Shown piece after piece: positions 11,641-56,662 of a DNA stretch of 64,000 nt. The first letter of the stretch is position 1. The number at the start of each line of letters is the position of its first letter. The notes under the pieces are model-generated. The model worked only from the letters and a program-made list of their open reading frames with translations. It did not search any database and was not told the DNA's origin. The stretch spans positions 22,783,001 to 22,847,000 of the forward strand of contig NC_058498.1 of NCBI RefSeq assembly GCF_020382885.2. Direction: 5' to 3'. The stretch is from Scatophagus argus (taxonomy: Eukaryota; Chordata; Actinopteri; Scatophagidae). Both the position numbers and the translations under genes were made by a program.

Positions 11641-11915
11641 ATGTACACTGTTGTAATGATGCACCCCAGAGCGACACAGGAAATCATTCCTGCCTGTCGC
11701 CATAAACTCTGCACTGTGACGGACACACATACTTTTATGTATACAATGTATATATGTACACATGTAAATACCTATATTTTTAGATTTATACTTATCTTGT
11801 TTTTTTTATTCTATTTTATATCTTTCACTTTCTTTCTTGGTCGGGAAAACTGCAAGTGCAATGTCTGTACGAAAACACGGTGATAAATAAAGGAATTTTG
11901 ATTCTGATGTAATGT
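11641..11915 (+). mobile_element. LINE 3'-end remnant at the left edge of the sec16b array
   Basis: The plus strand at about 11650-11715 encodes HPRATQEIIPACRHKL, which resembles the extreme C-terminus of fish L2-type LINE polymerases. It is followed by a non-coding tail ending in AATAAAGGAATTTTGATTCTG near 11885-11905. The distal half of this tail, from ~11811, is present in all five tandem units, so the proximal breakpoint of the duplication lies within this LINE tail. The class is from recognition only. Confidence 0.55.
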
Positions 11916-12029
11916 AATAATGTGGACGTTGCTTAAAGCGGTTTAACTATTATATCTAGTTTATTTTCCGGTTTAGCTTGTGACTATTACCTCGGGAAAC
12001 AGAAAAATGTTAAAACTTTTTGTTTTATT

Positions 12030-12211
12030 GACGCTCAGACCTGGGGGCAATGTAGAGTAGCCAATTAGCCTAACGTGCATGTTTTTGGAATTGTGGGACA
12101 GGCACAGGGAGAACATACAAACTCCACATAGAAGGGCCCAGACCGGGATTCGAACCTGGAACCCTCTTGCTATGAGGCGACAGTGATAACCACTGCACCA
12201 CTGTGCCGCCC
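12030..12211 (-). mobile_element. tRNA-derived SINE, unit 1
   Basis: On the minus strand the element starts GGGCGGCACAGTGGTGCAGT and has an A-box-like TGGTGCAGTGG and a perfect B box GGTTCGAATCC, the internal Pol III promoter of tRNA-derived SINEs. A 3' body follows with the conserved fish segment AACATGCACGTTAGG. It is not a tRNA gene: there is no cloverleaf acceptor stem. Copies recur in every array unit because of the tandem duplication. Confidence 0.75.
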
Positions 12212-12473
12212 AGAATTTGTTGGTCATACTTTTTATTATATTATTATTATTATTATTATGATTATTATGATTATGATTACTATTAAATAAACTACCTGAC
12301 TAAATGTAATTAGTCACTTACCATCATTGGAAACCAAAACAAAAAAACTCAAGAACCGATATAAAATGAAAGCAAAAAACTGACTAATCGAGTGTACCCA
12401 CAGGTCAGTCAGACGGTGGGAGAGAGTACATTTGCAAACCAGGATGAGTTTTCATCAGTATATAGTGTGTTAG

Positions 12474-12488
12474 AGCGCCTCTGGTGGA
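12474..12488 (-). promoter_or_regulatory. CTCF-like motif, unit 1
   Basis: The minus strand reads TCCACCAGAGGCGCT, close to the vertebrate CTCF core (CCACCAG, then a GG-rich block, then GCGCT). It lies about 800 bp upstream of the exon 1 ATG in this unit and recurs at 15314, 18132, 27818 and 30671. Binding is inferred only. Confidence 0.4.
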
Positions 12489-13275
12489 GACATAACCTAA
12501 CAAAAAACGTTCAGCGTTGAAATCGTCCCCGCTGACATGGGGCCAGTTGTTTTGCGCCGAGAGCTCACAGAGACGCCATGAAAACTGACCGGAGACCAGC
12601 TCAAGCAACGGCAGCAACTGTGCATCTTCCCTACCGGCAACGTGGCAAGACTTAACACAAAGTTGTACTTTTTTCTCACGCGTAAACTACAATCCGAGGG
12701 CACCGTCAGTCATGTGGAAATGACTCAGAAAATGTTCATAGGATCTTTGTCGTTGTTGTTGTTCGAATGAGCCTGAGGATGGACGTGATTTCCTCTTCTC
12801 CAGGTTCGCATCTGTCAGACTCCTCGGGGCGTGCTCCACTGTTTACGGTCAGCTCACTGAGAACTCACAGGCGGGGATATACAGTGCAAACATAACGGAC
12901 ATGACGGGTTGTGCACATTCAGAATCTGAATTGTGTCCACTTTTTTGTTCTCTCTCTGGGATATTTTTACTCTTTCATTAGCACCGCTTCCTGTGCAGTA
13001 ACAACAGTTCAGGTATTTTGTGAACTGTATCCTCTTGTTATCACGCTCACTTGTTATCAGCTCATGTTGTGACTTTTCTGTGAAATGATGTGGCAGCTGT
13101 GGACGTACTTTGACTGCGTCTGGCGTGTGTGAGCTGGAAGAGCCTAAACACAAACTGAACACATTCATTTGTACGGATTTTACTTCGGAATAAGAAATAG
13201 GCCTTGCAAAGTTCCTTCTTCCATTTACTCGTCGTAAGTGTTAAAAGTAGGCTGATCTTGTGTGACGGGGCCATC

Positions 13276-14649
13276 ATGGATCACAGAGGTCACGCCCGGC
13301 AAGACTCTGTCCGTCAGTCCCACAGAAAGAAAGACAGAGAGGAGTGCTACAGGCATTTTCAGCAGGACAGGGACCAGAGCTACCTACCACCGAACCACAG
13401 AGAGAGGGACAGGTATTGGGCTCATGCTGATGCCTACTACCAGACTCATTTCAACAGTCCTCCTGCCAGACCGGACCGGTATTCTTACAGCACGCAGCAG
13501 TATGCTTATGGCCATGGTCGCCCAGAACACGGAAGACCCCAGTCCAGGTGTGTATGCTCAGGGCACAATGCATGATGTTCCTTATCGATGCCTATGGTTT
13601 GTGTCAAAGTGACCCCCAACTAAATAATGGGAAGAGGTTAATAATAATTTTAGTGTTTGTAATCATGCAGTGCAGGACAATAAAACCAGACATAGCACTG
13701 CTTTGGGGACAGCTCAGGGTCAGGTACCTAAACCACTGGGTCAAGTGCTTGACTTCTTGCTGTTTAGCGCATACTGGTACTCACCACACACCTGTCACCA
13801 TGAAAAGGATTACAGGAAGAGGTGGGAAAGCTGAAGCCACCAGTAAATTTCTTCTTTTAAATTCTGTATGTCAGTGTTTCTGCACATTATGCCTGCTCCA
13901 GGGTGTCAAAAATGAATGAATGCATTGGTGAAGCCCTTTATTTCTAGGCATGGTTATGACTATCCAGCACACTGGGACTACAGAGACAGCTATGGATATT
14001 ATGACTACTACAGAGGACAGCATGAACGACAGGGTACGGTGATAGCCCATGAGACAACTAAGCTCTTTTTTATTATCAGTATACGACACTCAGTGTCTTG
14101 GTAAAAAAACAAATAAAATAGTACTTACGTGTTAATCTTATAAAGATACTAATCAGTGGGGTCCGCAAGAGGCCTGGAGGATGGAGCGCCACCCAGACAC
14201 AGCATACAAGCAGGAACATTCAGGGAGCTCCTACACTGAGGAGTACAGGTGAGCAGCGAGATTCCATTTCTATTAAAGTCATTTCTATTAAAGTTGATTT
14301 GATTTGTAAGAGAGAGAGAAGAAAGATGGTGGATTTGAGTTTAAAAAAAAATATATTTTGGAAAGATTATTGTGGATGTGCAGTCTTTGCTATGGTTGTT
14401 TGCCTGTTTTGGCACCACTCTGTTCAAAGAAGACTTTTTAATCACATTTTGTTATTTCTACATTTGTGTACTAAAATGTTATGTATCACTGGAATAAGAA
14501 TAATAATTTTGTCATTTGTATATCTGTATTTCAAAATGAGTGTAAACAAACAGAGTTGATATATCTCTATGAAAATGCAATTTATTGTTGCTTTAACTCT
14601 TTCAGGTGTGACCAAGCGAGGGAGAGCTCCCAGCATTACCTCAATGACT
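13276..14649 (+). pseudogene. sec16b: sec16b exons 1-3 and partial exon 4, copy 1
   Basis: This copy carries exon 1 (13276-13547), exon 2 (13948-14033), exon 3 (14146-14248) and a truncated exon 4 (14606-14649). Splice donors and acceptors of exons 1-3 are intact and frames are open. The copy differs from the others by Val instead of Gly at residue 12. Exon 4 breaks off after the codons for HYLND and reads into foreign sequence, with an in-frame stop after about 22 codons. As a self-contained gene it is truncated, but its exons 1-3 could still splice to the intact exon 4 at 32787. Hence it is either a pseudo-exon block or an alternative first-exon module; the sequence cannot decide which. Confidence 0.8.
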
Positions 14650-14872
14650 TATCCTATTTTCTATCTTTCACTTTCTTTCTTGGTCGGGAAAACTGCAAGT
14701 GCAATGTCTGTACGAAAACACGGTGATAAATAAAGGAATTTTGATTCTGATGTAATGTAATAATGTGGACGTTGCTTAAAGCGGTTTAACTATTATATCT
14801 AGTTTATTTTCCGGTTTAGCTTGTGACTATTACCTCGGGAAACAGAAAAATGTTAAAACTTTTTGTTTTATT

Positions 14873-15054
14873 GACGCTCAGACCTGGGGGCAATGTAGAG
14901 TAGCCAATTAGCCTAACGTGCATGTTTTTGGAATTGTGGGACAGGCACAGGGAGAACATACAAACTCCACATAGAAGGGCCCAGACCGGGATTCGAACCT
15001 GGAACCCTCTTGCTATGAGGCGACAGTGATAACCACTGCACCACTGTGCCGCCC
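14873..15054 (-). mobile_element. tRNA-derived SINE, unit 2
   Basis: This is the unit 2 copy of the SINE at 12030-12211, with the B box GGTTCGAATCC preserved. Confidence 0.75.
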
Positions 15055-15313
15055 AGAATTCGTTGGTCATATTTTTTATTATATTATTATTATTATTATG
15101 ATTATTATGATTATGATTACTATTAAATAAACTACCTGACTAAATGTAATTAGTCACTTACCATCATTGGAAACCAAAACAAAAAAACTCAAGAACCGAT
15201 ATAAAATGAAAGCAAAAAACTGACTAATCGAGTGTACCCACAGGTCAGTCAGACGGTGGGAGAGAGTACATTTGCAAACCAGGATGAGTTTTCATCAGTA
15301 TATAGTGTGTTAG

Positions 15314-15328
15314 AGCGCCTCTGGTGGA
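15314..15328 (-). promoter_or_regulatory. CTCF-like motif, unit 2
   Basis: Same 15-bp motif and relative position as in unit 1. Confidence 0.4.
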
Positions 15329-16087
15329 GACATAACCTAACAAAAAACGTTCAGCGTTGAAATCGTCCCCGCTGACATGGGGCCAGTTGTTTTGCGCCGA
15401 GAGCTCACAGAGACGCCATGAAAACTGACCGGAGACCAGCTCAAGCCGGCAACGTGGCAAGACTTAACACAAAGTTGTACTTTTTTCTCACGCGTAAACT
15501 ACAATCCGAGGGCACCGTCAGTCATGTGGAAATGACTCAGAAAATGTTCATAGGATCTTTGTCGTTGTTGTTGTTCGAATGAGCCTGAAGATGGACGTGA
15601 TTTCCTCTTCTCCAGGTTCGCATCTGTCAGACTCCTCGGGGCGTGCTCCACTGTTTACGGTCAGCTCACTGAGAACTCACAGGCGGGGATATACAGTGCA
15701 AACATAACGGACATGACGGGTTGTGCACATTCAGAATCTGAATTGTGTCCACTTTTTTGTTCTCTCTCTGGGATATTTTTACTCTTTCATTAGCACCGCT
15801 TCCTGTGCAGTAACAACAGTTCAGGTATTTTGTGAACTGTATCCTCTTGTTATCACGCTCACTTGTTATCAGCTCATGTTGTGACTTTTCTGTGAAATGA
15901 TGTGGCAGCTGTGGACGTACTTTGACTGCGTCTGGCGTGTGTGAGCTGGAAGAGCCTAAACACAAACTGAACACATTCATTTGTACGGATTTTACTTCGG
16001 AATAAGAAATAGGCCTTGCAAAGTTCCTTCTTCCATTTACTCGTCGTAAGTGTTAAAAGTAGGCTGATCTTGTGTGACGGGGCCATC

Positions 16088-17461
16088 ATGGATCACGGAG
16101 GTCACGCCCGGCAAGACTCTGGCCGTCAGTCCCACAGAAAGAAAGACAGAGAGGAGTGCTACAGGCATTTTCAGCAGGACAGGGACCAGAGCTACCTACC
16201 ACCGAACCACAGAGAGAGGGACAGGTATTGGGCTCATGCTGATGCCTACTACCAGACTCATTTCAACAGTCCTCCTGCCAGACCGGACCGGTATTCTTAC
16301 AGCACGCAGCAGTATGCTTATGGCCATGGTCGCCCAGAACACCGAAGACCCCAGTCCAGGTGTGTATGCTCAGGGCACAATGCATGATGTTCCTTATCGA
16401 TGCCTGTGGTTTGTGTCAAAGTGACCCCCAACTAAATAATGGGAAGAGGTTAATAATAATTTTAGTGTTTGTAATCATGCAGTGCAGGACAATAAAACCA
16501 GACATAGCACTGCTTTGGGGACAGCTCAGGGTCAGGTACCTAAACCACTGGGTCAAGTGCTTGACTTCTTGCTGTTTAGCGCATACTGGTACTCACCACA
16601 CACCTGTCACCATGAAAAGGATTACAGGAAGAGGTGGGAAAGCTGAAGCCACCAGTAAATTTCTTCTTTTAAATTCTGTATGTCAGTGTTTCTGCACATT
16701 ATGCCTGCTCCAGGGTGTCAAAAATGAATGAATGCATTGGTGAAGCCCTTTATTTCTAGGCATGGTTATGACTATCCAGCACACTGGGACTACAGAGACA
16801 GCTATGGATATTATGACTACTACAGAGGACAGCATGAACGACAGGGTACGGTGATAGCCCATGAGACAACTAAGCTCTTTTTTATTATCAGTATACGACA
16901 CTCAGTGTCTTGGTAAAAAAACAAATAAAATAGTACTTACGTGTTAATCTTATAAAGATACTAATCAGTGGGGTCCGCAAGAGGCCTGGAGGATGGAGCG
17001 CCACCCAGACACAGCATACAAGCAGGAACATTCAGGGAGCTCCTACACTGAGGAGTACAGGTGAGCAGCGAGATTCCATTTCTATTAAAGTCATTTCTAT
17101 TAAAGTTGATTTGATTTGTAAGAGAGAGAGAAGAAAGATGGTGGATTTGAGTTTAAAAAAAAATATATTTTGGAAAGATTATTGTGGATGTGCAGTCTTT
17201 GCTATGGTTGTTTGCCTGTTTTGGCACCACTCTGTTCAAAGAAGACTTTTTAATCACATTTTGTTATTTCTACATTTGTGTACTAAAATGTTATGTATCA
17301 CTGGAATAAGAATAATAATTTTGTCATTTGTATATCTGTATTTCAAAATGAGTGTAAACAAACAGAGTTGATATATCTCTATGAAAATGCAATTTATTGT
17401 TGCTTTAACTCTTTCAGGTGTGACCAAGCGAGGGAAAGCTCCCAGCATTACCTCAATGACT
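16088..17461 (+). pseudogene. sec16b: sec16b exons 1-3 and partial exon 4, copy 2
   Basis: The exons correspond to copy 1, with the ATG at 16088. This copy has Gly at residue 4, Gly at 12, Ser at 15 and a unique Arg in place of Gly at residue 86. The donor of exon 3 (GTGAGC) is intact. Exon 4 is truncated at 17461 and reads into the next unit. Its functional status is as uncertain as that of copy 1. Confidence 0.8.
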
Positions 17462-17684
17462 TATCCTATTTTCTATCTTTCACTTTCTTTCTTGGTCGGG
17501 AAAACTGCAAGTGCAATGTCTGTACGAAAACACGGTGATAAATAAAGGAATTTTGATTCTGATGTAATGTAATAATGTGGACGTTGCTTAAAGCGGTTTA
17601 ACTATTATATCTAGTTTATTTTCCGGTTTAGCTTGTGACTATTACCTCGGGAAACAGAAAAATTTTAAAACTTTTTGTTTTATT

Positions 17685-17866
17685 GACGCTCAGACCTGGG
17701 GGCAATGTAGAGTAGCCAATTAGCCTAACGTGCATGTTTTTGGAATTGTGGGACAGGCACAGGGAGAACATACAAACTCCACATAGAAGGGCCCAGACCG
17801 GGATTCGAACCTGGAACCCTCTTGCTATGAGGCGACAGTGATAACCACTGCACCACTGTGCCGCCC
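17685..17866 (-). mobile_element. tRNA-derived SINE, unit 3
   Basis: This is the unit 3 copy of the array SINE, with A-box-like and B-box sequences preserved. Confidence 0.75.
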
Positions 17867-18131
17867 AGAATTTGTTGGTCATACTTTTTATTATATTATT
17901 ATTATTATTATTATTATGATTATTATGATTATGATTACTATTAAATAAACTACCTGACTAAATGTAATTAGTCACTTACCATCATTGGAAACCAAAACAA
18001 AAAAACTCAAGAACCGATATAAAATGAAAGCAAAAAACTGACTAATCGAGTGTACCCACAGGTCAGTCAGACGGTGGGAGAGAGTACATTTGCAAACCAG
18101 GATGAGTTTTCATCAGTATATAGTGTGTTAG

Positions 18132-18146
18132 AGCGCCTCTGGTGGA
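18132..18146 (-). promoter_or_regulatory. CTCF-like motif, unit 3
   Basis: Same 15-bp motif and relative position as in unit 1. Confidence 0.4.
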
Positions 18147-18933
18147 GACATAACCTAACAAAAAACGTTCAGCGTTGAAATCGTCCCCGCTGACATGGGG
18201 CCAGTTGTTTTGCGCCGAGAGCTCACAGAGACGCCATGAAAACTGACCGGAGACCAGCTCAAGCAACGGCAGCAACTGTGCATCTTCCCTACCGGCAACG
18301 TGGCAAGACTTAACACAAAGTTGTACTTTTTTCTCACGCGTAAACTACAATCCGAGGGCACCGTCAGTCATGTGGAAATGACTCAGAAAATGTTCATAGG
18401 ATCTTTGTCGTTGTTGTTGTTCGAATGAGCCTGAAGATGGACGTGATTTCCTCTTCTCCAGGTTCGCATCTGTCAGACTCCTCGGGGCGTGCTCCACTGT
18501 TTACGGTCAGCTCACTGAGAACTCACAGGCGGGGATATACAGTGCAAACATAACGGACATGACGGGTTATGCACATTCAGAATCTGAATTGTGTCCACTT
18601 TTTTGTTCTCTCTCTGGGATATTTTTACTCTTTCATTAGCACCGCTTCCTGTGCAGTAACAACAGTTCAGGTATTTTGTGAACTGTATCCTCTTGTTATC
18701 ACGCTCACTTGTTATCAGCTCATGTTGTGACTTTTCTGTGAAATGATGTGGCAGCTGTGGACGTACTTTGACTGCGTCTGGCGTGTGTGAGCTGGAAGAG
18801 CCTAAACACAAACTGAACACATTCATTTGTACGGATTTTACTTCGGAATAAGAAATAGGCCTTGCAAAGTTCCTTCTTCCATTTACTCGTCGTAAGTGTT
18901 AAAAGTAGGCTGATCTTGTGTGACGGGGCCATC

Positions 18934-20306
18934 ATGGATCACAGAGGTCACGCCCGGCAAGACTCTGGCCGTCAGCCCCACAGAAAGAAAGACAGAGAGG
19001 AGTGCTACAGGCATTTTCAGCAGGACAGGGACCAGAGCTACCTACCACCGAACCACAGAGAGAGGGACAGGTATTGGGCTCATGCTGATGCCTACTACCA
19101 GACTCATTTCAACAGTCCTCCTGCCAGACCGGACCGGTATTCTTACAGCACGCAGCAGTATGCTTATGGCCATGGTCGCCCAGAACACGGAAGACCCCAG
19201 TCCAGGTGTGTATGCTCAGGGCACAATGCATGATGTTCCTTATCGATGCCTATGGTTTGTGTCAAAGTGACCCCCAACTAAATAATGGGAAGAGGTTAAT
19301 AATAATTTTAGTGTTTGTAATCATGCAGTGCAGGACAATAAAACCAGACATAGCACTGCTTTGGGGACAGCTCAGGGTCAGGTACCTAAACCACTGGGTC
19401 AAGTGCTTGACTTCTTGCTGTTTAGCGCATACTGGTACTCACCACACACCTGTCACCATGAAAAGGATTACAGGAAGAGGTGGGAAAGCTGAAGCCACCA
19501 GTAAATTTCTTCTTTTAAATTCTGTATGTCAGTGTTTCTGCACATTATGCCTGCTCCAGGGTGTCAAAAATGAATGAATGCATTGGTGAAGCCCTTTATT
19601 TCTAGGCATGGTTATGACTATCCAGCACACTGGGACTACAGAGACAGCTATGGATATTATGACTACTACAGAGGACAGCATGAACGACAGGGTACGGTGA
19701 TAGCCCATGAGACAACTAAGCTCTTTTTTATTATCAGTATACGACACTCAGTGTCTTGGTAAAAAAACAAATAAAATAGTACTTACGTGTTAATCTTATA
19801 AAGATACTAATCAGTGGGGTCCGCAAGAGGCCTGGAGGATGGAGCGCCACCCAGACACAGCATACAAGCAGGAACATTCAGGGAGCTCCTACACTGAGGA
19901 GTACAGGTGAGCAGCGAGATTCCATTTCTATTAAAGTCATTTCTATTAAAGTTGATTTGATTTGTAAGAGAGAGAGAAGAAAGATGGTGGATTTGAGTTT
20001 AAAAAAAAAATATTTTGGAAAGATTATTGTGGATGTGCAGTCTTTGCTATGGTTGTTTGCCTGTTTTGGCACCACTCTGTTCAAAGAAGACTTTTTAATC
20101 ACATGTTGTTATTTCTACATTTGTGTACTAAAATGTTATGTATCACTGGAATAAGAATAATAATTTTGTCATTTGTATATCTGTATTTCAAAATGAGTGT
20201 AAACAAACAGAGTTGATATATCTCTATGAAAATGCAATTTATTGTTGCTTTAACTCTTTCAGGTGTGACCAAGCGAGGGAGAGCTCCCAGCATTACCTCA
20301 ATGACT
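18934..20306 (+). pseudogene. sec16b: sec16b exons 1-3 and partial exon 4, copy 3
   Basis: The ATG is at 18934. This copy has Arg at residue 4 and Pro at residue 15, a combination distinct from copies 1, 2, 4 and 5. Splice sites of exons 1-3 are intact. Exon 4 is cut after 44 bases. Confidence 0.8.
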
Positions 20307-20530
20307 TATCCTATTTTCTATCTTTCACTTTCTTTCTTGGTCGGGAAAACTGCAAGTGCAATGTCTGTACGAAAACACGGTGATAAATAAAGGAATTTTG
20401 ATTCTGATGTAATGTAATAATGTGGACGTTGCTTAAAGCGGTTTAACTATTATATCTAGTTTATTTTCCGGTTTAGCTTGTGACTATTACCTCGGGAAAC
20501 AGAAAAATTTTTAAAACTTTTTGTTTTATT

Positions 20531-20712
20531 GACGCTCAGACCTGGGGGCAATGTAGAGTAGCCAATTAGCCTAACGTGCATGTTTTTGGAATTGTGGGTC
20601 AGGCACAGGGAGAACATACAAACTCCACATAGAAGGGCCCAGACCGGGATTCGAACCTGGAACCCTCTTGCTATGAGGCGACAGTGATAACCACTGCACC
20701 ACTGTGCCGCCC
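20531..20712 (-). mobile_element. tRNA-derived SINE, unit 4
   Basis: This is the unit 4 copy of the array SINE; it ends about 40 bp before the BEL insertion. Confidence 0.75.
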
Positions 20713-20754
20713 AGAATTCGTTGGTCATATTTTTTATTATATTATTATTATTAT

Positions 20755-21199
20755 TGTAGCTGACGCTCGCAATATGGCTATGTTACCATGGCAATGTCAG
20801 AAGTTAAGGTGCAATCATCACATTGCAGTTCTGATTGTTTATTTGTTTACATAGATTGTGGTGAAACATCCTGAATTATGATCCATGATTGTTGTGGGAT
20901 CTTGCGGAAATGTTTAGTTTTATTGTGAAAAGGTCACTTCCTGTGTAGCTTAAGCCGGAAGTTGTGAGCGGGAATTGAGAAAGAGATGACTGTCTACTAC
21001 TGGCTAACCAGGCGTACACGGTAATCATTTTTAAATACTGAAATCCATGTACTTGTGTGAAAGAGAATAATAGAAAATGATGTATATGGAAATATGTTCT
21101 TGTTCCAGTTTTCACGGTGTTCCTTAACCACGACGAAAGACAATAAAAAGGTTGTGGACATCAGTAAGAAGCGTAGTTCTTGTTGCCATAGTAGATACA
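20755..21199 (+). repeat. BEL 5' LTR
   Basis: This 445-bp repeat begins TGTAGCTGACGCTCGC and ends CATAGTAGATACA. I found no difference from the 3' LTR by eye. An AATAAA-type hexamer at ~21140 near its end fits an LTR poly(A) signal. A 79-codon minus-strand open frame recurs in both LTRs and is not considered a gene. Confidence 0.95.
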
Positions 21200-21949
21200 G
21201 TGAAAACGTGGCCTAATCCATCCACGAGGCTTCATAGTGCAACGTCGCTTCACGTCCTGCGGCAAGCCGAAGGCTACAAGCTACGAAGAGCGGCGGTGCT
21301 CCTCGTCCTGCAACAAGCAACGGGCCAGGGGCTAAGACGAGCGGAGGTGTTTCATCCTGCGGCAAGCTGAAGGCTACAAGCTACGAAGAGCGGCGGTGCT
21401 CCTCGTCCTGCAACGAGCTACGGGTCAGGTGGCTAAGACGAGCGGAGGTGTTTCATCCTGCGGCAAGCTGAAGGCTACAAGCTACGACGAGCGGCGGTGC
21501 TTCACGTCCTGCAACAAGCTACAGTTTTGAGGTGAACAGCGGTATCGCTGCTACACATCCGACGGCAAGCTACGGGTTTCAGCGGACACTCCGTGGAGCG
21601 GTTGCGGGCTGCAGCGTAGGTCCTCAGGTTGGGCGATTATTATGCCTCAGGAAGTTGATGGATAGAACATAAGCTACCGTTTAATCATAATAAGCAAGAC
21701 ATTAAAGGGATTTTGGACAATCAAAAATCTGTTGAACGTTCTGATAATAATTGCTATAGTGTTGTCTTGCTGAGGACCCTTACATTTATTTGACTTCAGT
21801 AAGTTGAGAAAGTAATCTCAGGTGCTGATAATTATTAAGGGTGTCATTTTTGTGTTATTTGGCTACTCACTGCCAATTATAGCCACAATATATCCTTGTA
21901 ACTTACCCTACTTACCTTGCTTGCTCCATTTAAGCATTGAAGGTTCAAA
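21200..21949 (+). other. BEL leader with ~100-bp tandem repeats
   Basis: Between the 5' LTR and the gag start, units beginning TGCGGCAAGC recur at 21258, 21358 and 21459, about 100-101 bp apart, and decay toward 21570. The repeats are G/C-rich compared with the rest of the element. The primer-binding site should lie just after 21199; a TGG at 21209-21211 is a candidate, but I cannot assign a tRNA. Confidence 0.7.
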
Positions 21950-23665: not shown

Positions 23666-26600
23666 GAACAAGTTGTGTTTTGCATGTCTGAGGAAAGGTC
23701 ACAACTCTAGAGACTGTAGAAACAGAGCCATGTGTGGCATATGCAGAAAGAGTCACCCAACTCCATTGCATGAAAATCGTTTCCCAGCAGTTTCTAAGCA
23801 AAGTGCAGTTGAGGAAAGCACATCCTCATTGTCGTGCAGTGTGAAGGGAGGAGAAGGTGGTAGCACTTCAATGATTGTACCAGTGTGGATTTCAGCACCT
23901 AACGCTCCTGATAAGGAAACCTTAGCATATGCCCTACTCGACACACAAAGTAGTCACACTTTTGTTGATCAAGAGGTGTGTGAAAAACTTCAGGCAGTGT
24001 CGCAGCCAGTAAAATTGAAGCTCTCCACCATGATGGGGAAAGATTCAATTGTGGAGAGTCAAAGAGTATGTGATCTCAAAGTCAGAGGTTTCTCCTCAAA
24101 CATTTCCATCAACTTACCTCCAGCCTACACGAGAGACTTTATTCCTCTTGACCGTGCACATATCCCCACCTGTCAAACAGCCAACAAATGGAAACACCTT
24201 AACAACATAGGCCAAGAGATACCCCCATTAATGGACTGTGGTGTTGGATTATTGATTGGCTATGACTGCTCGAGAGCGTTAATCCCGAGAAAAGTCATCA
24301 CTGGGGGTGACTATGAACCCTACGCCATTAAAACTGATCTCGGTTGGAGCATTGTGGGAAGTGTGCCTCAGCATGTGAATGCTAAAGATGTGACTGGTCT
24401 TTGTCATCGGGTGTCTGTCAGAGAACTGCCACCTATAACGCCACCTTCGGTCATTAAGGCTCTTGAGTCTGATTTTGCAGACACAAAATCATGTGACAAA
24501 AGCATATCTCAAGAAGATATTTGCTTCTTGCAGATCTTAAGAGGAGGAGTTCAGCAAAACGAGCATGGTCACCTTGAGATGCCTCTCCCCTTTAAGGTAC
24601 GTCCTCACCTTCCAGACAATAAAAAGTTGGCTTTAGCTCGCCTGAAGCACCTTAAAAGAAAGCTGGACAGAGATCCCAAGTTCAAAAGGGACTATGTAAG
24701 GTTCATGGAAGGTGTGTTCAAGGATGATGAGGCAGAGAAAGTAGACACCCAACCAGAGCCTGGAAAAACCTGGTATATCCCACATCAGGGGGTTTACCAC
24801 CCCAGGAAACCAGACAAGATCCGGGTGGTTTTTGATTGCTCTGCAAAGTATGAAGGCACCTCATTAAATGATCATTTGTTAACAGGACCTGACCTTACAA
24901 ATGGTCTCACAGCTGTACTATGCCGTTTCCGTAAACATCCCATTGCAGTCATGTGTGATGTGGAAAAGATGTTCCACCGGTTTCATGTCAGCAAAGAAGA
25001 TAGGGACTATTTGCGGTTTCTCTGGTGGGAAAATGGGGACACAAACTCAGAACCCACAGAATACCGCATGAAAGTGCACCTGTTTGGAGCATCATCTTCC
25101 CCTGGCTGTGCAAATTATGGCATGAAACATCTTGCCAGTCAGAGTGAGAAAGAATGCCCCTCTGCAGCTAGCTTCATCAAGAAGCATTTTTACGTTGATG
25201 ATGGCCTCATAAGTGTGCAATCAGTTGGCGAAGCAATTAAGTTAGTGAAGGAAGCCCAAGCTGTGTGTGCTAAAGGAAAGTTGCACCTTCACAAATTTCT
25301 TTCCAACAACCGAGAAGTACTTGATTCCATCAGCATTGCAGAACGCGCTGAGGAGGTAAAAAATGTTGATCTCAGTCACGATGACTTACCAGTGCAAAGA
25401 GTGTTAGGTATAAGATGGAACATTGAAAGTGACAACTTCACCTTCAAGGTGACACCTGATGAGAAGCCAGCGACACGGCGAGGGATTCTCTCAGTCGTGG
25501 CCTCTTTATACGATCCTTTAGGGTTTCTAGCTCCATTTATTCTTGAAGGAAAAAGAGTGCTGCAGGAGATGTGTCAGAGAGGTACTGGGTGGGACGAACC
25601 ACTACCCAGGGACTTGAAGTTCAGGTGGGAGACTTGGATGAAGGATTTGGAAAACCTTGAGAAGATCGAGATTCCAAGATGCTTCATACCTGACAGCTTT
25701 GGTGAGGTCCAGAGAGTTGAGCTACATCATTTTTCTGATGCAAGCAGTCAAGGGTATGGTCAGTGCTCTTACATCAGATTGTTGAGCAAAGAGAAAGTGC
25801 ACTGCTCCTTGGTCATGGGCAAAGCAAGAGTTGCACCAACTAAAATAGTCACTATACCAAGGTTGGAGCTAACTGCTGCAGTAATCTCAGCAGCCATGAG
25901 CAACATGTTAAAGGAGGAGCTAGAGCTCAAGATCGATGAGGAATATTATTGGACAGACTCTCAAGTGGTTCTCGGCTACATCAGTAATGAAGCACGAAGG
26001 TTTCATATCTTTGTTGCAAACCGTGTCCAGAGAATTCGAGAAACCACTGACACAAGACAATGGCACTACGTTGAAACAGGGGAAAACCCTGCCGACCACG
26101 CCTCCAGAGGTCTCAAGGTAGCTGACCTCATTAACTCAAACTGGTTCTCTGGTCCTAAATTTTTATGGAAGAGAGAGATAGCCACAAACCAGGTTACATC
26201 AGAGCTACTGGTGGGAGATCCGGAGGTGAGGATTACACAGGTGCTGAAAACAGAGGCTGCAAGGCAATTTGATGTTCAAGGACACCTGTCACGGTTCTCA
26301 AGATGGACCACAGCGATCAATGTCATTGCCCGTATCAAGCGATTAGCTAATAGGGTAAAGACCACAGATCCTTTAAATGTGAAAGAGAGAAAGCAAGCTG
26401 CACTGACTCTTATCAAGCTTGCACAACAAGATGCTTTCCAAGAGCCGTTGAGCATGCTCAACCAGAAATCAGGAAAGCTACCTTACAACCACCAACTCTA
26501 TCAGCTTGACCCGTTCCTTCAAGATGGTATAATGAGAGTGGGAGGAAGACTGAGAAAGGCTTCTGTGCCTTTTGAGCTGAGACACCCAGTAATCCTTCCC

Positions 26601-26699
26601 AAAGATGGCGCTGTCACAAACCTTATCATTGCTCATCACCATGACAAAATACAACACCAAGGCAGAGGACGTCCCTCGCAACGAGTGGAAACTTGCTAA
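23586..26699 (+). CDS. BEL pol: knuckle, protease, reverse transcriptase, RNase H
   Basis: This 1037-residue frame starts inside the gag end and is in a different phase. The first ATG may not be a true start, because BEL elements usually make one gag-pol product. In order it shows a CCHC knuckle (CFACLRKGHNSRDC), a retropepsin-like site DTQSSHTF, reverse transcriptase motifs with a YVDD active site at ~residues 535-540, RNase H features (FSDASSQGYG, YYWTDSQVVL), and the start of the integrase zinc domain (AHHHDKIQH). There the frame jumps to unrelated-phase sequence and ends. The integrase catalytic domain, normally several hundred residues, is absent. This is why I consider the copy non-autonomous. 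Confidence 0.9.
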   Translation: MEKTTPYINAKKLTEMSAEEKKLCIHENKLCFACLRKGHNSRDCRNRAMCGICRKSHPTPLHENRFPAVSKQSAVEESTSSLSCSVKGGEGGSTSMIVPVWISAPNAPDKETLAYALLDTQSSHTFVDQEVCEKLQAVSQPVKLKLSTMMGKDSIVESQRVCDLKVRGFSSNISINLPPAYTRDFIPLDRAHIPTCQTANKWKHLNNIGQEIPPLMDCGVGLLIGYDCSRALIPRKVITGGDYEPYAIKTDLGWSIVGSVPQHVNAKDVTGLCHRVSVRELPPITPPSVIKALESDFADTKSCDKSISQEDICFLQILRGGVQQNEHGHLEMPLPFKVRPHLPDNKKLALARLKHLKRKLDRDPKFKRDYVRFMEGVFKDDEAEKVDTQPEPGKTWYIPHQGVYHPRKPDKIRVVFDCSAKYEGTSLNDHLLTGPDLTNGLTAVLCRFRKHPIAVMCDVEKMFHRFHVSKEDRDYLRFLWWENGDTNSEPTEYRMKVHLFGASSSPGCANYGMKHLASQSEKECPSAASFIKKHFYVDDGLISVQSVGEAIKLVKEAQAVCAKGKLHLHKFLSNNREVLDSISIAERAEEVKNVDLSHDDLPVQRVLGIRWNIESDNFTFKVTPDEKPATRRGILSVVASLYDPLGFLAPFILEGKRVLQEMCQRGTGWDEPLPRDLKFRWETWMKDLENLEKIEIPRCFIPDSFGEVQRVELHHFSDASSQGYGQCSYIRLLSKEKVHCSLVMGKARVAPTKIVTIPRLELTAAVISAAMSNMLKEELELKIDEEYYWTDSQVVLGYISNEARRFHIFVANRVQRIRETTDTRQWHYVETGENPADHASRGLKVADLINSNWFSGPKFLWKREIATNQVTSELLVGDPEVRITQVLKTEAARQFDVQGHLSRFSRWTTAINVIARIKRLANRVKTTDPLNVKERKQAALTLIKLAQQDAFQEPLSMLNQKSGKLPYNHQLYQLDPFLQDGIMRVGGRLRKASVPFELRHPVILPKDGAVTNLIIAHHHDKIQHQGRGRPSQRVETC

Positions 26700-26832
26700 G
26701 GTTGTTGAAGCACATGAGGATGACGATGGACTGGTGCGAAAAGTGACGGTGCAGATTGGAGAGCGGAAGTTAGGAAAAAAGGGTGAGCGCCTCAGCCAGC
26801 CATCCATCGTTCAAAGACCCATTCAGAAGTAA
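26650..26832 (+). pseudogene. BEL pol C-terminal (DUF5641-like) remnant
   Basis: Just after the deletion junction, a different frame encodes DVPRNEWKLAKVVEAHEDDD and later RPIQK. This is the pattern of the DUF5641 domain that closes BEL/Pao pol proteins. It shows that the deletion removed the middle of the integrase region while leaving the far end of pol. Confidence 0.75.
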
Positions 26833-27138
26833 GTGGTTCTAGTTAAGAGTAGCTAAAGAAGGGAAAGTCATTGTTTAAATGTCTCCTTTTAAGCTAAAAG
26901 TGGTTGTTATACTAACGTTTATCCTTAATTGGATATTCAGTACATGTTGAGATGTGAATTATACTGGTGACCTGTGTTTTTGAATTTTGTGTAGGAAATC
27001 ATATGTTCAATTTCCAGATGTCAGAGTGTTACACGAAACAACATACCAGTGCTTGGAAATTACTGTTGATTATTTAATGAAGAGCATAAGTGTATTGCAC
27101 ATCTTCATTTGTGTTAATCAAAGGTAATTTGGTGGGAG

Positions 27139-27583
27139 TGTAGCTGACGCTCGCAATATGGCTATGTTACCATGGCAATGTCAGAAGTTAAGGTGCAATC
27201 ATCACATTGCAGTTCTGATTGTTTATTTGTTTACATAGATTGTGGTGAAACATCCTGAATTATGATCCATGATTGTTGTGGGATCTTGCGGAAATGTTTA
27301 GTTTTATTGTGAAAAGGTCACTTCCTGTGTAGCTTAAGCCGGAAGTTGTGAGCGGGAATTGAGAAAGAGATGACTGTCTACTACTGGCTAACCAGGCGTA
27401 CACGGTAATCATTTTTAAATACTGAAATCCATGTACTTGTGTGAAAGAGAATAATAGAAAATGATGTATATGGAAATATGTTCTTGTTCCAGTTTTCACG
27501 GTGTTCCTTAACCACGACGAAAGACAATAAAAAGGTTGTGGACATCAGTAAGAAGCGTAGTTCTTGTTGCCATAGTAGATACA
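27139..27583 (+). repeat. BEL 3' LTR
   Basis: This 445-bp direct repeat of 20755-21199 is preceded by a short purine-rich GGTGGGAG that may be the polypurine tract. Confidence 0.95.
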
Positions 27584-27817
27584 ATTATTATCATTATTAT
27601 TATTATGATTATTATTATTATTACTATTAAATAAACTACCTGACTAAATGTAATTAGTCACTTACCATCATTGGAAACCAAAACAAAAAAACTCAAGAAC
27701 CGATATAAAATGAAAGCAAAAAACTGACTAATCGAGTGTACCCACAGGTCAGTCAGACGGTGGGAGAGAGTACATTTGCAAACCAGGATGAGTTTTCATC
27801 AGTATATAGTGTGTTAG

Positions 27818-27832
27818 AGCGCCTCTGGTGGA
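27818..27832 (-). promoter_or_regulatory. CTCF-like motif, unit 4
   Basis: Same 15-bp motif and relative position to exon 1 as in unit 1. It now lies about 235 bp downstream of the BEL 3' LTR. Confidence 0.4.
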
Positions 27833-28619
27833 GACATAACCTAACAAAAAACGTTCAGCGTTGAAATCGTCCCCGCTGACATGGGGCCAGTTGTTTTGCG
27901 CCGAGAGCTCACAGAGACGCCATGAAAACTGACCGGAGACCAGCTCAAGCAACGGCAGCAACTGTGCATCTTCCCTACCGGCAACGTGGCAAGACTTAAC
28001 ACAAAGTTGTACTTTTTTCTCACGCGTAAACTACAATCCGAGGGCACCGTCAGTCATGTGGAAATGACTCAGAAAATGTTCATAGGATCTTTGTCGTTGT
28101 TGTTGTTCGAATGAGCCTGAAGATGGACGTGATTTCCTCTTCTCCAGGTTCGCATCTGTCAGACTCCTCGGGGCGTGCTCCACTGTTTACGGTCAGCTCA
28201 CTGAGAACTCACAGGCGGGGATATACAGTGCAAACATAACGGACATGACGGGTTATGCACATTCAGAATCTGAATTGTGTCCACTTTTTTGTTCTCTCTC
28301 TGGGACATTTTTACTCTTTCATTAGCACCGCTTCCTGTGCAGTAACAACAGTTCAGGTATTTTGTGAACTTTATCCTCTTGTTATCACGCTCACTTGTTA
28401 TCAGCTCATGTTGTGACTTTTCTGTGAAATGATGTGGCAGCTGTGGACGTACTTTGACTGCGTCTGGCGTGTGTGAGCTGGAAGAGCCTAAACACAAACT
28501 GAACACATTCATTTGTACGGATTTTACTTCGGAATAAGAAATAGGCCTTGCAAAGTTCCTTCTTCCATTTACTCGTCGTAAGTGTTAAAAGTAGGCTGAT
28601 CTTGTGTGACGGGGCCATC

Positions 28620-29993
28620 ATGGATCACAGAGGTCACGCCCGGCAAGACTCTGGCCGTCAGTCCCACAGAAAGAAAGACAGAGAGGAGTGCTACAGGCAT
28701 TTTCAGCAGGACAGGGACCAGAGCTACCTACCACCGAACCACAGAGAGAGGGACAGGTATTGGGCTCATGCTGATGCCTACTACCAGACTCATTTCAACA
28801 GTCCTCCTGCCAGACCGGACCGGTATTCTTACAGCACGCAGCAGTATGCTTATGGCCATGGTCGCCCAGAACACGGAAGACCCCAGTCCAGGTGTGTATG
28901 CTCAGGGCACAATGCATGATGTTCCTTATCGATGCCTATGGTTTGTGTCAAAGTGACCCCCAACTAAATAATGGGAAGAGGTTAATAATAATTTTAGTGT
29001 TTGTAATCATGCAGTGCAGGACAATAAAACCAGACATAGCACTGCTTTGGGGACAGCTCAGGGTCAGGTACCTAAACCACTGGGTCAAGTGCTTGACTTC
29101 TTGCTGTTTAGCGCATACTGGTACTCACCACACACCTGTCACCATGAAAAGGATTACAGGAAGAGGTGGGAAAGCTGAAGCCACCAGTAAATTGCTTCTT
29201 TTAAATTCTGTATGTCAGTGTTTCTGCACATTATGCCTGCTCCAGGGTGTCAAAAATGAATGAATGCATTGGTGAAGCCCTTTATTTCTAGGCATGGTTA
29301 TGACTATCCAGCACACTGGGACTACAGAGACAGCTATGGATATTATGACTACTACAGAGGACAGCATGAACGACAGGGTACGGTGATAGCCCATGAGACA
29401 ACTAAGCTCTTTTTTATTATCAGTATACGACACTCAGTGTCTTGGTAAAAAAACAAATAAAATAGTACTTACGTGTTAATCTTATAAAGATACTAATCAG
29501 TGGGGTCCGCAAGAGGCCTGGAGGATGGAGCGCCACCCAGACACAGCATACAAGCAGGAACATTCAGGGAGCTCCTACACTGAGGAGTACAGCTGAGCAG
29601 CGAGATTCCATTTCTATTAAAGTCATTTCTATTAAAGTTGATTTGATTTGTAAGAGAGAGAGAAGAAAGATGGTGGATTTGAGTTTAAAAAAAAAAATAT
29701 TTTGGAAAGATTATTGTGGATGTGCAGTCTTTGCTATGGTTGTTTGCCTGTTTTGGCACCACTCTGTTCAAAGAAGACTTTTTAATCACATGTTGTTATT
29801 TCTACATTTGTGTACTAAAATGTTATGTATCACTGGAATAAGAATAATAATTTTGTCATTTGTATATCTGTATTTCAAAATGAGTGTAAACAAACAGAGT
29901 TGATATATCTCTATGAAAATGCAATTTATTGTTGCTTTAACTCTTTCAGGTGTGACCAAGCGAGGGAGAGCTCCCAGCATTACCTCAATGACT
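28620..29993 (+). pseudogene. sec16b: sec16b exons 1-3 and partial exon 4, copy 4, broken exon 3 donor
   Basis: The ATG is at 28620; residues 4, 12 and 15 are Arg, Gly and Ser. The exon 3 donor that reads GTGAGC in the other four copies is CTGAGC here (at about 29592), so normal splicing out of exon 3 should fail. Together with the upstream BEL insertion, this makes copy 4 the one most likely to be non-functional. Confidence 0.82.
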
Positions 29994-30217
29994 TATCCTA
30001 TTTTCTATCTTTCACTTTCTTTCTTGGTCGGGAAAACTGCAAGTGCAATGTCTGTACGAAAACACGGTGATAAATAAAGGAATTTTGATTCTGATGTAAT
30101 GTAATAATGTGGACGTTGCTTAAAGCGGTTTAACTATTATATCTAGTTTATTTTCCGGTTTAGCTTGTGACTATTACTTCGGGAAACAGAAAAATTTTAA
30201 AAACTTTTTGCTTTATT

Positions 30218-30399
30218 GACGCTCAGACCTGGGGGCAATGTAGAGTAGCCAATTAGCCTAACGTGCATGTTTTTGGAATTGTGGGTCAGGCACAGGGAGA
30301 ACATACAAACTCCACATAGAAGGGCCCAGACCGGGATTCGAACCTGGAACCCTCTTGCTATGAGGCGACAGTGATAACCACTGCACCACTGTGCCGCCC
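30218..30399 (-). mobile_element. tRNA-derived SINE, unit 5
   Basis: This is the unit 5 copy of the array SINE, with the B box GGTTCGAATCC preserved. Confidence 0.75.
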
Positions 30400-30670
30400 A
30401 GAATTCGTTGGTCATATTTTTTATTATATTATTATTATTATTATGATTATTATTATTATGATTATTATTATTATTACTATTAAATAAACTACCTGACTAA
30501 ATGTAATTAGTCACTTACCATCATTGGAAACCAAAACAAAAAAACTCAAGAACCGATATAAAATGAAAGCAAAAAACTGACTAATCGAGTGTACCCACAG
30601 GTCAGTCAGACGGTGGGAGAGAGTACATTTGCAAACCAGGATGAGTTTTCATCAGTATATAGTGTGTTAG

Positions 30671-30685
30671 AGCGCCTCTGGTGGA
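30671..30685 (-). promoter_or_regulatory. CTCF-like motif, unit 5
   Basis: Same 15-bp motif and relative position as in unit 1, here upstream of the exon set that is contiguous with the full gene. Confidence 0.4.
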
Positions 30686-31472
30686 GACATAACCTAACAA
30701 AAAACGTTCAGCGTTGAAATCGTCCCCGCTGACATGGGGCCAGTTGTTTTGCGCCGAGAGCTCACAGAGACGCCATGAAAACTGACCGGAGACCAGCTCA
30801 AGCAACGGCAGCAACTGTGCATCTTCCCTACCGGCAACGTGGCAAGACTTAACACAAAGTTGTACTTTTTTCTCACGCGTAAACTACAATCCGAGGGCAC
30901 CGTCAGTCATGTGGAAATGACTCAGAAAATGTTCATAGGATCTTTGTCGTTGTTGTTGTTCGAATGAGCCTGAGGATGGACGTGATTTCCTCTTCTCCAG
31001 GTTCGCATCTGTCAGACTCCTCGGGGCGTGCTCCACTGTTTACGGTCAGCTCACTGAGAACTCACAGGCGGGGATATACAGTGCAAACATAACGGACATG
31101 ACGGGTTATGCACATTCAGAATCTGAATTGTGTCCACTTTTTTGTTCTCTCTCTGGGACATTTTTACTCTTTCATTAGCACCGCTTCCTGTGCAGTAACA
31201 ACAGTTCAGGTATTTTGTGAACTTTATCCTCTTGTTATCACGCTCACTTGTTATCAGCTCATGTTGTGACTTTTCTGTGAAATGATGTGGCAGCTGTGGA
31301 CGTACTTTGACTGCGTCTGGCGTGTGTGAGCTGGAAGAGCCTAAACACAAACTGAACACATTCATTTGTACGGATTTTACTTCGGAATAAGAAATAGGCC
31401 TTGCAAAGTTCCTTCTTCCATTTACTCGTCATAAGTGTTAAAAGTAGGCTGATCTTGTGTGACGGGGCCATC

Positions 31473-34400
31473 ATGGATCACGGAGGTCACGCCCGGCAAG
31501 ACTCTGGCCGTCAGCCCCACAGAAAGAAAGACAGAGAGGAGTGCTACAGGCATTTTCAGCAGGACAGGGACCAGAGCTACCTACCACCGAACCACAGAGA
31601 GAGGGACAGGTATTGGGCTCATGCTGATGCCTACTACCAGACTCATTTCAACAGTCCTCCTGCCAGACCGGACCGGTATTCTTACAGCACGCAGCAGTAT
31701 GCTTATGGCCATGGTCGCCCAGAACACGGAAGACCCCAGTCCAGGTGTGTATGCTCAGGGCACAATGCATGATGTTCCTTATCGATGCCTATGGTTTGTG
31801 TCAAAGTGACCCCCAACTAAATAATGGGAAGAGGTTAATAATAATTTTAGTGTTTGTAATCATGCAGTGCAGGACAATAAAACCAGACATAGCACTGCTT
31901 TGGGGACAGCTCAGGGTCAGGTACCTAAACCACTGGGTCAAGTGCTTGACTTCTTGCTGTTTAGCGCATACTGGTACTCACCACACACCTGTCACCATGA
32001 AAAGGATTACAGGAAGAGGTGGGAAAGCTGAAGCCACCAGTAAATTTCTTCTTTTAAATTCTGTATGTCAGTGTTTCTGCACATTATGCCTGCTCCAGGG
32101 TGTCAAAAATGAATGAATGCATTGGTGAAGCCCTTTATTTCTAGGCATGGTTATGACTATCCAGCACACTGGGACTACAGAGACAGCTATGGATATTATG
32201 ACTACTACAGAGGACAGCATGAACGACAGGGTACGGTGATAGCCCATGAGACAACTAAGCTCTTTTTTATTATCAGTATACGACACTCAGTGTCTTGGTA
32301 AAAAAACAAATAAAATAGTACTTACGTGTTAATCTTATAAAGATACTAATCAGTGGGGTCCGCAAGAGGCCTGGAGGATGGAGCGCCACCCAGACACAGC
32401 ATACAAGCAGGAACATTCAGGGAGCTCCTACACTGAGGAGTACAGGTGAGCAGCAAGATTCCATTTCTATTAAAGTTGATTTGATTTGTAAGAGAGAGAG
32501 AAGAAAGATGGTGGATTTGAGTTTAAAAAAAAAATATTTTGGAAAGATTATTGTGGATGTGCAGTCTTTGCTATGGTTGTTTGCCTGTTTTGGCACCACT
32601 CTGTTCAAAGAAGACTTTTTAATCACATGTTGTTATTTCTACATTTGTGTACTAAAATGTTATGTATCACTGGAATAAGAATAATAATTTTGTCATTTGT
32701 ATATCTGTATTTCAAAATGAGTGTAAACAAACAGAGTTGATATATCTCTATGAAAATGCAATTTATTGTTGCTTTAACTCTTTCAGGTGTGACCAAGCGA
32801 GGGAGAGCTCCCAGCATTACCTCAATGACTACGAGGATAATCCCTCCAGAGACAACGAAGAGGTTTCCTCTTATTATGTGGGGACACTAGAAAGTTCCAA
32901 AAACTCAGGGTTGTCCTCCAGCAGCTATGAGCTCAGTCAGTACATTAACGGAGCTGAACACAGTGAGCCTGTTCACAGTGCTGTTGCAGGTGAGTGTGCA
33001 GTTAAAGCTCTTTTCTCTTGGCTCCACTTTCATCATGACACATGGTTTTTTCTCCTCAGAGCACAGCACTTTGCATCAGGTGTCAGATCCTCTGAAGTAC
33101 TCAGTCCCTCATGCAGTTGTCAGCTTTGGGCCTGCAGGCCAGCTGATACGAGTCACTCCAGGACTGTCCACACAGGACAATGTCAGCCAGCTGGAAATCC
33201 ACAGTCTGGAGGTACGTTCAACAGTAGCCTTTGCTGAGAACATCATTAGACTTTCTTCTTTTTATCCACTGTCATATTAGACAATGGATAAAAGATGAAT
33301 TCTGCCTGTATGTCTACACAGGTCATAATGAGTGACACCCAGGAGCAGCAGGAGATGAGGACATTCCCAGGACCTTTAACCAGGTGTTGCTTTGTCATTT
33401 GTCACACAATTCTGAGTGTGAATGTTCACCACAAGGATTGGTGTGTCACCATCAGAATGCATTCTGCTCAGCGTCACACCTTAAATTATTATAGATAGAT
33501 AGATAGATAGATATACTTTACAGATATACTATATAGATCTTTTTTATTGATCTTTATTGGTATTATTATTATTATTATTATCATCATTATTATGATAATT
33601 ATTATGAGATTTTTTTAAAAATCCAGCATCTGAATGTTCAAAGTACTTGATATTTTTTTCATGTTTTTGAAGGGAAGACTTGCACAAAGTAGATGCTATA
33701 GAGTTTGCCCACCAGAGGGCAGGAGCCTGCATGAGGGGTGACCACAAGCTCCACGATAGGACTTCTGCTGCCCTCTTGTGGAATCTACTGATACTGCTCT
33801 GCAGACAGAATGGAGTAAGCAAATCGTGGCTCGCTATTACGTGTGGAAGTAGTACACACTGGCTTTACCGTAACAGTAAATGTTACATTTTTCTCTCTTA
33901 TAAAATTATCACTAAACTTTCATTGTTGCAGCAAATTGTTGGCTCGGATATTGCAGAGCTGCTGATGCAGGGCTCACATTCCGATGGAAGCTTGGAGTCA
34001 GATGCTCCCACACTCATCGACTTCAGCGAGAGCACGACTGCTGAAGCGCCACCTCGCAAAGGAGATGACCTTCTCACAGGAAACTCGAGCAGCTTCAGCT
34101 CTGAGACCTCTGAGAAGGCCCTGCAGAGCTACACCCAACTGTTGTTGGCTGGCAGAAAGAAGGTTTCTACCTTTCTAACTCTGTTCAGCCGATGTTTATC
34201 ACGTCTCTAGTTGTATGTGATATAATGTGTAATAATGTAATACATGTTTTTCTTGAAATTCTTGAAAAGTCTCCAGTGAGTGGGGCATGACACATAATGT
34301 TTCTCTGCGAAATGTGGTGCGGTAGAAGTATAGAGTAGCATAAAATAGAAATACTCAAATTAAGTGTTAAGTACTGCAAAACTGTACTCACAGTGCTGGT

Positions 34401-44874: not shown

Positions 44875-45301
44875 GGTCACTTGTGCAGTGAGGCATAAAA
44901 TCATCTGCATGAGATTTAAACTGTTCAGGGAATTTTTGTTGCCCTTCTTAAAAAGACCTGAAGAAATAAAATACAGAGCATGTTATAACCATCCCCATTT
45001 AAGCCAAATAAAACCTTATCATAGCCTCAAATAATTTCTGAATATCACATAATTGGATGTAATTCTTTCATAGTAAGCCTATTGCTGTGACCATAAAGAC
45101 CTCCTTTGCTGCTGCGTTCACCAGTATCTTGGGAATATCCCTCAAATAACCTCACACTTTGTCACATGAATCGTCAAACTTCGACATACTGTATGTTCCT
45201 CCATTGTTTTTATATTTCCATAAAAAAAAAAATCAAACGCACCTAGTCGACCTCATGAATTTAACTTCACAAACTGAAAACATTTCAGTGCAGCTACTTA
45301 C

Positions 45302-55022: not shown

Positions 55023-56662
<1,640 letters not shown>

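Follow-up and report, generated by a model that had tools for sequence, protein, structure and literature searches.

Why does the sec16b gene of Scatophagus argus stand behind five copies of its own 5′ end, and do the extra copies serve it as alternative starts? The locus lies in a stretch of 64,000 nucleotides, referred to here as the window (NC_058498.1, positions 22,783,001 to 22,847,000, forward strand; all coordinates below are positions within it), and this window contains no N. In our view, the extra copies are more likely to have arisen as a side effect of recent duplication than to serve as alternative starts. The account that we favour, and hold to be probable, is that the sec16b 5′ end was recently duplicated in part and multiplied to five, that units 1-3 read as closed small genes and that the array is most probably neutral or close to it.

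Judged by its Sec16 domain, the gene is a sec16b orthologue, as the preliminary description of this DNA had named it. Protein searches covered three length ranges: 448-1426 aa (best 120 of 809 matches), 187-595 aa (all 66) and 105-334 aa (all 5). In the first of these, fish Sec16B matches span the whole query, and the closest is a 931-aa “Sec16B-like” protein of S. argus (P0001) at 99%, with the other 119 listed at 83% or less. P0001 contains both the Sec16 central domain (PF12931, E 4.4e-44) and the mid-region (PF12932, E 7.1e-07), and one solved structure, yeast Sec16 3mzk, is related (E 2.7e-05). The gene model has 23 exons. With exons 1-3 of unit 5 it gives a stop-free translation to residue 931, and its body, exons 4-23, occupies 32787-40881 on the plus strand and ends with TAG at 40879-40881. 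An exon 2/3 boundary at 32235/32354, used in the first gene model, was overruled by the fish proteins, where QDTNQWG in P0001 and QDAGQWG in P0002, P0004 and P0005 give 32230/32343. Among related proteins, the Sec16B-like models P0126 (338 aa, Periophthalmus) and P0129 (464 aa, Nematolebias) have no TPR_Sec16 domain in their precomputed annotation, and P0129, by eye, looks like a fusion of the N- and C-terminal parts. Gaps in the assemblies may explain these models, or the proteins may be naturally short.

In terms of architecture, self-BLAST of the window and an alignment of the units reveal five head-to-tail copies of one unit of 2.81-2.86 kb at 11806-32830. Repeats of kilobase scale and >98% identity are far beyond chance. 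When the long terminal repeat (LTR) element of unit 4 is removed for alignment, unit length is 2812-2858 bp, and pairwise divergence among the five is 0.28-0.78% of aligned sites (substitutions only). Unit 1 (11806-14648, 2843 bp) comprises the upstream region, exons 1-3 at 13276-13547, 13948-14033 and 14146-14248, and a chimeric exon 4 with its acceptor at 14606. Unit 2 (14649-17460, 2812 bp) has a 28-bp deletion in its upstream part, exons at 16088-16359, 16760-16845 and 16958-17060, and a chimeric exon 4 from 17418. The corresponding exons of unit 3 (17461-20305, 2845 bp) are at 18934-19205, 19606-19691 and 19804-19906, with the chimeric exon 4 from 20263. Unit 4 (20306-29992) measures 9687 bp, of which 6829 are the LTR element; its exons are at 28620-28891, 29292-29377 and 29490-29592, its chimeric exon 4 begins at 29950, and its exon-3 donor is changed from GT to CT. 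Finally, unit 5 (29993-32830, 2838 bp) has exons 1-3 at 31473-31744, 32145-32230 and 32343-32445, a 15-bp deletion in intron 3 and, starting at 32787, the initial 44 nt of exon 4; it is joined to the intact gene. All five units are on the plus strand.

The preliminary description had placed the left edge of these ~2.8-kb repeats at 11811; the array is present as described, with its edge at 11806, and its last unit does stop 44 bases inside exon 4 (32787-32830). The common junction claimed for units 2-5 is also borne out, since the four internal junctions are alike over the 60 bases compared on each side, except for one single-nucleotide polymorphism (SNP) in unit 2. At this junction exon 4 is fused, 43-44 bases in, to the sequence that starts at 11806 in unit 1, and the join partners have at most 1 base in common. 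Exons 1-3 had been said to keep open frames and splice sites in copies 1-3 and 5. Their reading frame is in fact open in 5/5 units, and unit 4 alone loses a splice site in them, the exon-3 donor CAG/GT having become CAG/CT. Two features were absent from that account: the LTR element at 20755-27583, and a stop with a poly(A) hexamer behind each internal junction.

Since exon 4 runs through the join into the head of the following unit, units 1-3 can be read as closed small genes. After exon 3, each has an intact donor, an intact exon-4 acceptor, 44 nt of exon 4, 25 in-frame codons recruited from the head of the next unit (LSYFLSFTFFLGRENCKCNVCTKTR), TGA and AATAAA. In unit 1 this chimeric terminal exon, exon 4′, occupies 14606-14734 on the plus strand, with 43 nt of exon 4 up to the junction (44 with the shared base), the 25 recruited codons, a TGA ending at 14726 and AATAAA at 14729-14734. 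By sequence, the same layout is found on the same strand in units 2, 3 and 4 (17418-17546, 20263-20391 and 29950-30078), and AATAAA starts at the third base past the stop, 123 nt from the acceptor, in 4/4 units with an internal junction. Splice sites were scored crudely, from textbook-style frequencies. The exon 4′ acceptor of units 1-3 scores 9.2, as does that of the genuine exon 4. Exon 4′ of unit 4 is no different, but the exon-3 donor there scores 0.8 versus 10.8. Because the acceptor, the in-frame stop and the AATAAA of their own are intact, the nearest splice in units 1-3 should lead to a closed truncated transcript and not feed the gene body.

Units 1-3 thus carry the sequence parts of a short gene for 193 aa, whose splice and poly(A) sites are presumably used. 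The predicted length is 193 aa and not 191, because the exon 2/3 boundary is at 32230/32343. The product would consist of the first 168 aa of Sec16B, rich in Arg and Tyr, and the recruited tail, without the mid-region and the central domain. According to excerpts of a study of mammalian SEC16B (PMC13226660), removal of the central domain gives abnormal COPII assemblies and inhibits export in a mutant that retains the C-terminal part, and with an inducible version assemblies arose upon bringing the N- and C-terminal parts together. A 193-aa N-terminal piece would not be expected to act like that mutant. As for the source of the recruited codons, they have no further copy outside the array in the 64-kb window. 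The left end of the unit resembles the tail of a long interspersed nuclear element, but the window likewise holds no second copy of it outside the array, and a repeat origin is thus unproven.

The presumptive promoter region that had been proposed for each unit has a counterpart in a CpG-rich, promoter-like stretch in 5/5 units. A 200-bp window with an observed/expected CpG ratio >1.0 is found at the matching place in each (12501, 15301, 18151, 27851 and 30701). In unit 5, the candidate promoter is the CpG-rich stretch 5′ of the ATG at 30593-31192 (plus strand), with ratios of 0.70-0.91 per 200 bp, the mean of the whole window being 0.38. Of the 40 highest 200-bp windows listed, some fall at 10.45-10.65, 45.5-45.6 and 56.9 kb, a little 5′ of where the gadd45-like, zinc-finger and glutamine synthetase genes presumably start, and these peaks near the presumed 5′ ends of neighbouring genes support the promoter reading. 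The same 40 also include unit heads, an AT-rich stretch at 30401, the LTR element, 47.05-47.1 kb and a coding stretch of glutamine synthetase; the sign is not specific, because such peaks occur at non-promoter places too. No noncoding first exon was found outside the array. Splicing within the 5′ untranslated region is conceivable, since unit 5 has, by the crude scores, a donor-like site at 30600 (8.5) and acceptor-like sites at 31001 (13.1) and 31179 (8.5). Directly 5′ of the sec16b ATG, nine codons (31446-31472) read RLILCDGAI; a longer Siniperca isoform (P0002) begins similarly, with RLILCEGVV ahead of MDHRGH, which hints at an alternative upstream start.

Regarding the origin of the array, the founding event would have been a head-to-tail partial duplication of the sec16b 5′ end that began in the upstream region and stopped 44 nt inside exon 4, through one join with at most 1 bp in common. 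Growth to five copies would have followed by unequal exchange, as the mosaic pattern of the units suggests. Only unit 5 is connected to the gene body. Units 1-3 each read as closed, with a promoter-like region, exons 1-3 and an acceptor for exon 4 followed by the 25 recruited codons, the stop and the hexamer. Unit 4 has in addition lost the donor needed to splice its own exon 3 to exon 4′, and it carries the LTR insertion. All four combinations appear in 40 of the 105 informative site pairs in a four-gamete test, which argues that the copies exchanged sequence. This agrees with the earlier proposal that the array grew from one event, probably by unequal crossing-over, as far as a single founding junction and subsequent exchange among the copies are concerned. 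Within the first 13 columns, two separate unit 1 from units 2-5, which has a probability of ~0.007 given the rate in all other columns; the join may thus have undergone small changes as it formed. At an assumed rate of 5e-9 substitutions per site per year, 0.28-0.78% divergence corresponds to roughly 0.3-0.8 million years.

Exons hold 5 substitution columns in 505 (the 44 nt of exon 4 included), compared with 25 in 2354 elsewhere. Four of the five alter an amino acid (R4G, G12V, S15P and G86R), and the fifth is silent, in exon 4 of unit 2; two of the amino-acid changes are held by the gene-bearing unit 5. Exons are thus not depleted of substitutions, and nothing points to purifying selection, although the numbers are small.

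Several observations weigh against this account. The sole S. argus protein found, P0001, carries exon 1 of unit 4 and not that of unit 5. Over its first 155 aa it has 0 mismatches to unit 4, 1 to unit 1, 2 to unit 2, 1 to unit 3 and 2 to unit 5, the latter at R4 and S15, and from exon 4 to its end it is identical to exons 4-23 of the window gene. An upstream unit could thus feed the gene. The chimeric exon also has its own points of doubt. AATAAA or ATTAAA occurs 7 times on the plus strand of unit 1, two of these in intron 3, and because of this recurrence little can be concluded from the hexamer alone. Just ahead of the stop, 116 nt inside exon 4′, is a weak donor-like site (score 4.1), so that exon 4′ might be spliced onward. 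An open run of 25 codons is not rare by chance. The predicted product also lacks support, as no truncated S. argus protein was found among all 5 matches of the 105-334 aa search, which used the 191-aa query of the first gene model. Lastly, exons 1-3 are intact in all copies, which at <1% divergence says little.

The preliminary description proposed that exons 1-3 of copies 1-3 and 5 could each act as an alternative start module, like a variable-first-exon cluster. In such a scheme the promoters of several units would be in use, and an upstream exon 1, alone or with exons 2 and 3, would bypass the closed ends and be spliced to the gene body, so that several units feed one protein. Part of the proposal stands, since exon 1 of units 1-4 fits exon 2 of unit 5, exon 3 and exon 4 in frame and free of stops in 4/4 cases. 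Unit 4, the one that P0001 matches, is also the unit whose dead exon-3 donor blocks the self-closing splice. Had P0001 been predicted from the present assembly, unit 4 would be the source of its exon 1 and that of unit 5 would be skipped. However, such splicing would not be the default, as units 1-3 close themselves with intact terminal exons. P0001 may instead come from another haplotype or fish whose gene-adjacent unit keeps the likely ancestral R4 and S15, residues also present in the fish Sec16B proteins P0003-P0005, or it could be a homology-guided gene model that preferred the exon of unit 4, the closest to other fishes. Its 90% cluster holds one sequence, and with this single member no further start isoforms are on record there. 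Among the matches listed by the three protein searches there was no second S. argus entry and no other above 84% identity; truncated, extended or alternative-start S. argus proteins were likewise not seen among them, such absence from a database being weak evidence. We consider the start-module proposal unlikely. A narrower form of it, in which donor loss freed unit 4 from self-closing and its promoter now supplies the recorded sec16b protein while units 1-3 stay closed, we regard as quite improbable; the same-strand LTR ends 1037 bp upstream of the ATG of unit 4. If true, this would be a variable-first-exon cluster caught as its modules become connected.

The high similarity of the copies (>98%) also fits an assembly error, with copy number inflated or the units of two haplotypes strung together. 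Five distinct copies with private SNPs or indels exceed what the two haplotypes of a diploid can supply, the one junction is repeated, the LTR element is in a single copy and the stretch has no N, all of which makes this very improbable. An array of in-frame cassettes is conceivable in that exons 2 and 3 sum to 189 nt: splicing exon 3 of one unit to exon 2 of the next (phase 2 to 2) would add 63 aa per unit to the Sec16B N-terminal region, and a path from exon 1 of unit 1 through exons 2-3 of units 1, 2, 3 and 5 into exon 4 is stop-free. Such splices must skip an intact acceptor backed by a stop and a poly(A) hexamer, exon 3 of unit 4 has no donor, and the search up to 1426 aa (best 120 of 809) gave no expanded S. 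argus protein, so that we give this path hardly any credence. Equally remote is an effect at the RNA level, in which truncated transcripts with the 5′ end of the sec16b mRNA would alter its stability or translation. Excerpts of Katju 2012 (PMC3449122) describe such a proposal for Makorin1-p1, a 5′ partial duplicate and thus the same type of copy. The sec16b copies, likewise short 5′ copies of a parent gene, show no sign of constraint; unlike Makorin1-p1, they lie in tandem with their parent.

The remaining features of the window lie in and around the array. The LTR element of unit 4 (20755-27583, 6829 bp, plus strand) has LTRs at 20755-21199 and 27139-27583, each 445 bp, with 0 differences between them, and its insertion looks very recent. 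It is found in unit 4 only. The element has TG..CA ends, a Pao peptidase (PF05380, E 3.2e-50) and a reverse transcriptase match of 27.7 bits, under the cut-off of 29.6 (PF00078); its open reading frames (ORFs) are a gag-side one with DUF1759 and a pol with Peptidase_A17. Neither of the two ORFs scanned had an integrase domain match. By these features the element is BEL/Pao-like. ATTAT is present on both sides, and as a target-site duplication it is weak evidence, because the insertion lies in an ATT repeat whose length varies among the units, 5 nt longer in unit 4 than in unit 5 and 11-17 nt longer than in units 1-3.

To the left of the array is a gadd45-like gene (9854-10258, minus strand) with a Ribosomal_L7Ae/Gadd45 domain. 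Directly downstream of sec16b lies a C2H2 zinc-finger gene in a single frame (43393-44982, minus strand, 529 aa stop to stop), and further on are two glutamine synthetase pieces, both on the minus strand: 56161-56430 with Gln-synt_N above cut-off and 55023-55397 with Gln-synt_C below it. Furthermore, a Tc1/mariner-type element (730-2362) has a 344-aa stop-free transposase frame (950-1984, minus strand) with a Sleeping Beauty-type helix-turn-helix and DDE_3, and is flanked by inverted repeats (730-946 and 2145-2362) that are 93.6% alike. The window has no Rfam family at gathering thresholds and no tRNA.

As for known systems, the closest in kind is the partial gene duplicate with recruitment, a class that Katju 2012, as excerpted (PMC3449122), exemplifies with Hun in Drosophila (~33 aa recruited), and that calls for a single-copy outgroup state. 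Units 1-4 end 44 nt into exon 4 of the 23-exon model and are incomplete copies of a single parent gene. Leaving the outgroup state aside, and with the window sequence as its basis, the array would count as such a duplicate, multiplied in tandem. As in Hun, an incomplete single-parent copy would gain a short new coding end from nearby sequence, here of 25 codons. Unlike in that class, the parent here closes a head-to-tail array, the recruited codons belong to the head of the next unit, and the junction occurs four times.

The variable-first-exon clusters Ugt1, Gcnt2 and clustered Pcdh (excerpts of PMC1885805) also place tandem modules of promoter and 5′ coding sequence ahead of common downstream exons in compatible frame. 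Here, by contrast, a module has three exons plus a terminal exon with its own stop and poly(A) hexamer, and the copies are near-identical; exons 1-3 of all five have four variable residues in total, and neither diversified N-termini nor diversified products are seen. The resemblance to Ugt1- or Gcnt2-type clusters would thus be one of layout only. One paper collection yielded no literature pairing sec16b with tandem duplication; among the matches listed there (titles and abstract starts) we found no duplication report for sec16b in fish, and no mention of Sec16 in work on tandem first-exon duplication.

If the array is neutral, which we think likelier, it would be a clean, if unremarkable, case of a partial duplicate that recruited new sequence. 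SEC16B is reported to be a COPII modulator and critical for APOB lipoprotein secretion in mammals (excerpts of PMC13226660), and through this role a change in 5′ copy number in fish could bear on lipid traits. Partial 5′ duplications may be how tandem clusters of alternative first exons originate, yet such events can first yield closed, self-terminating fragments. This locus displays that self-closing obstacle in a young array, together with one possible escape from it, the lost donor of unit 4.

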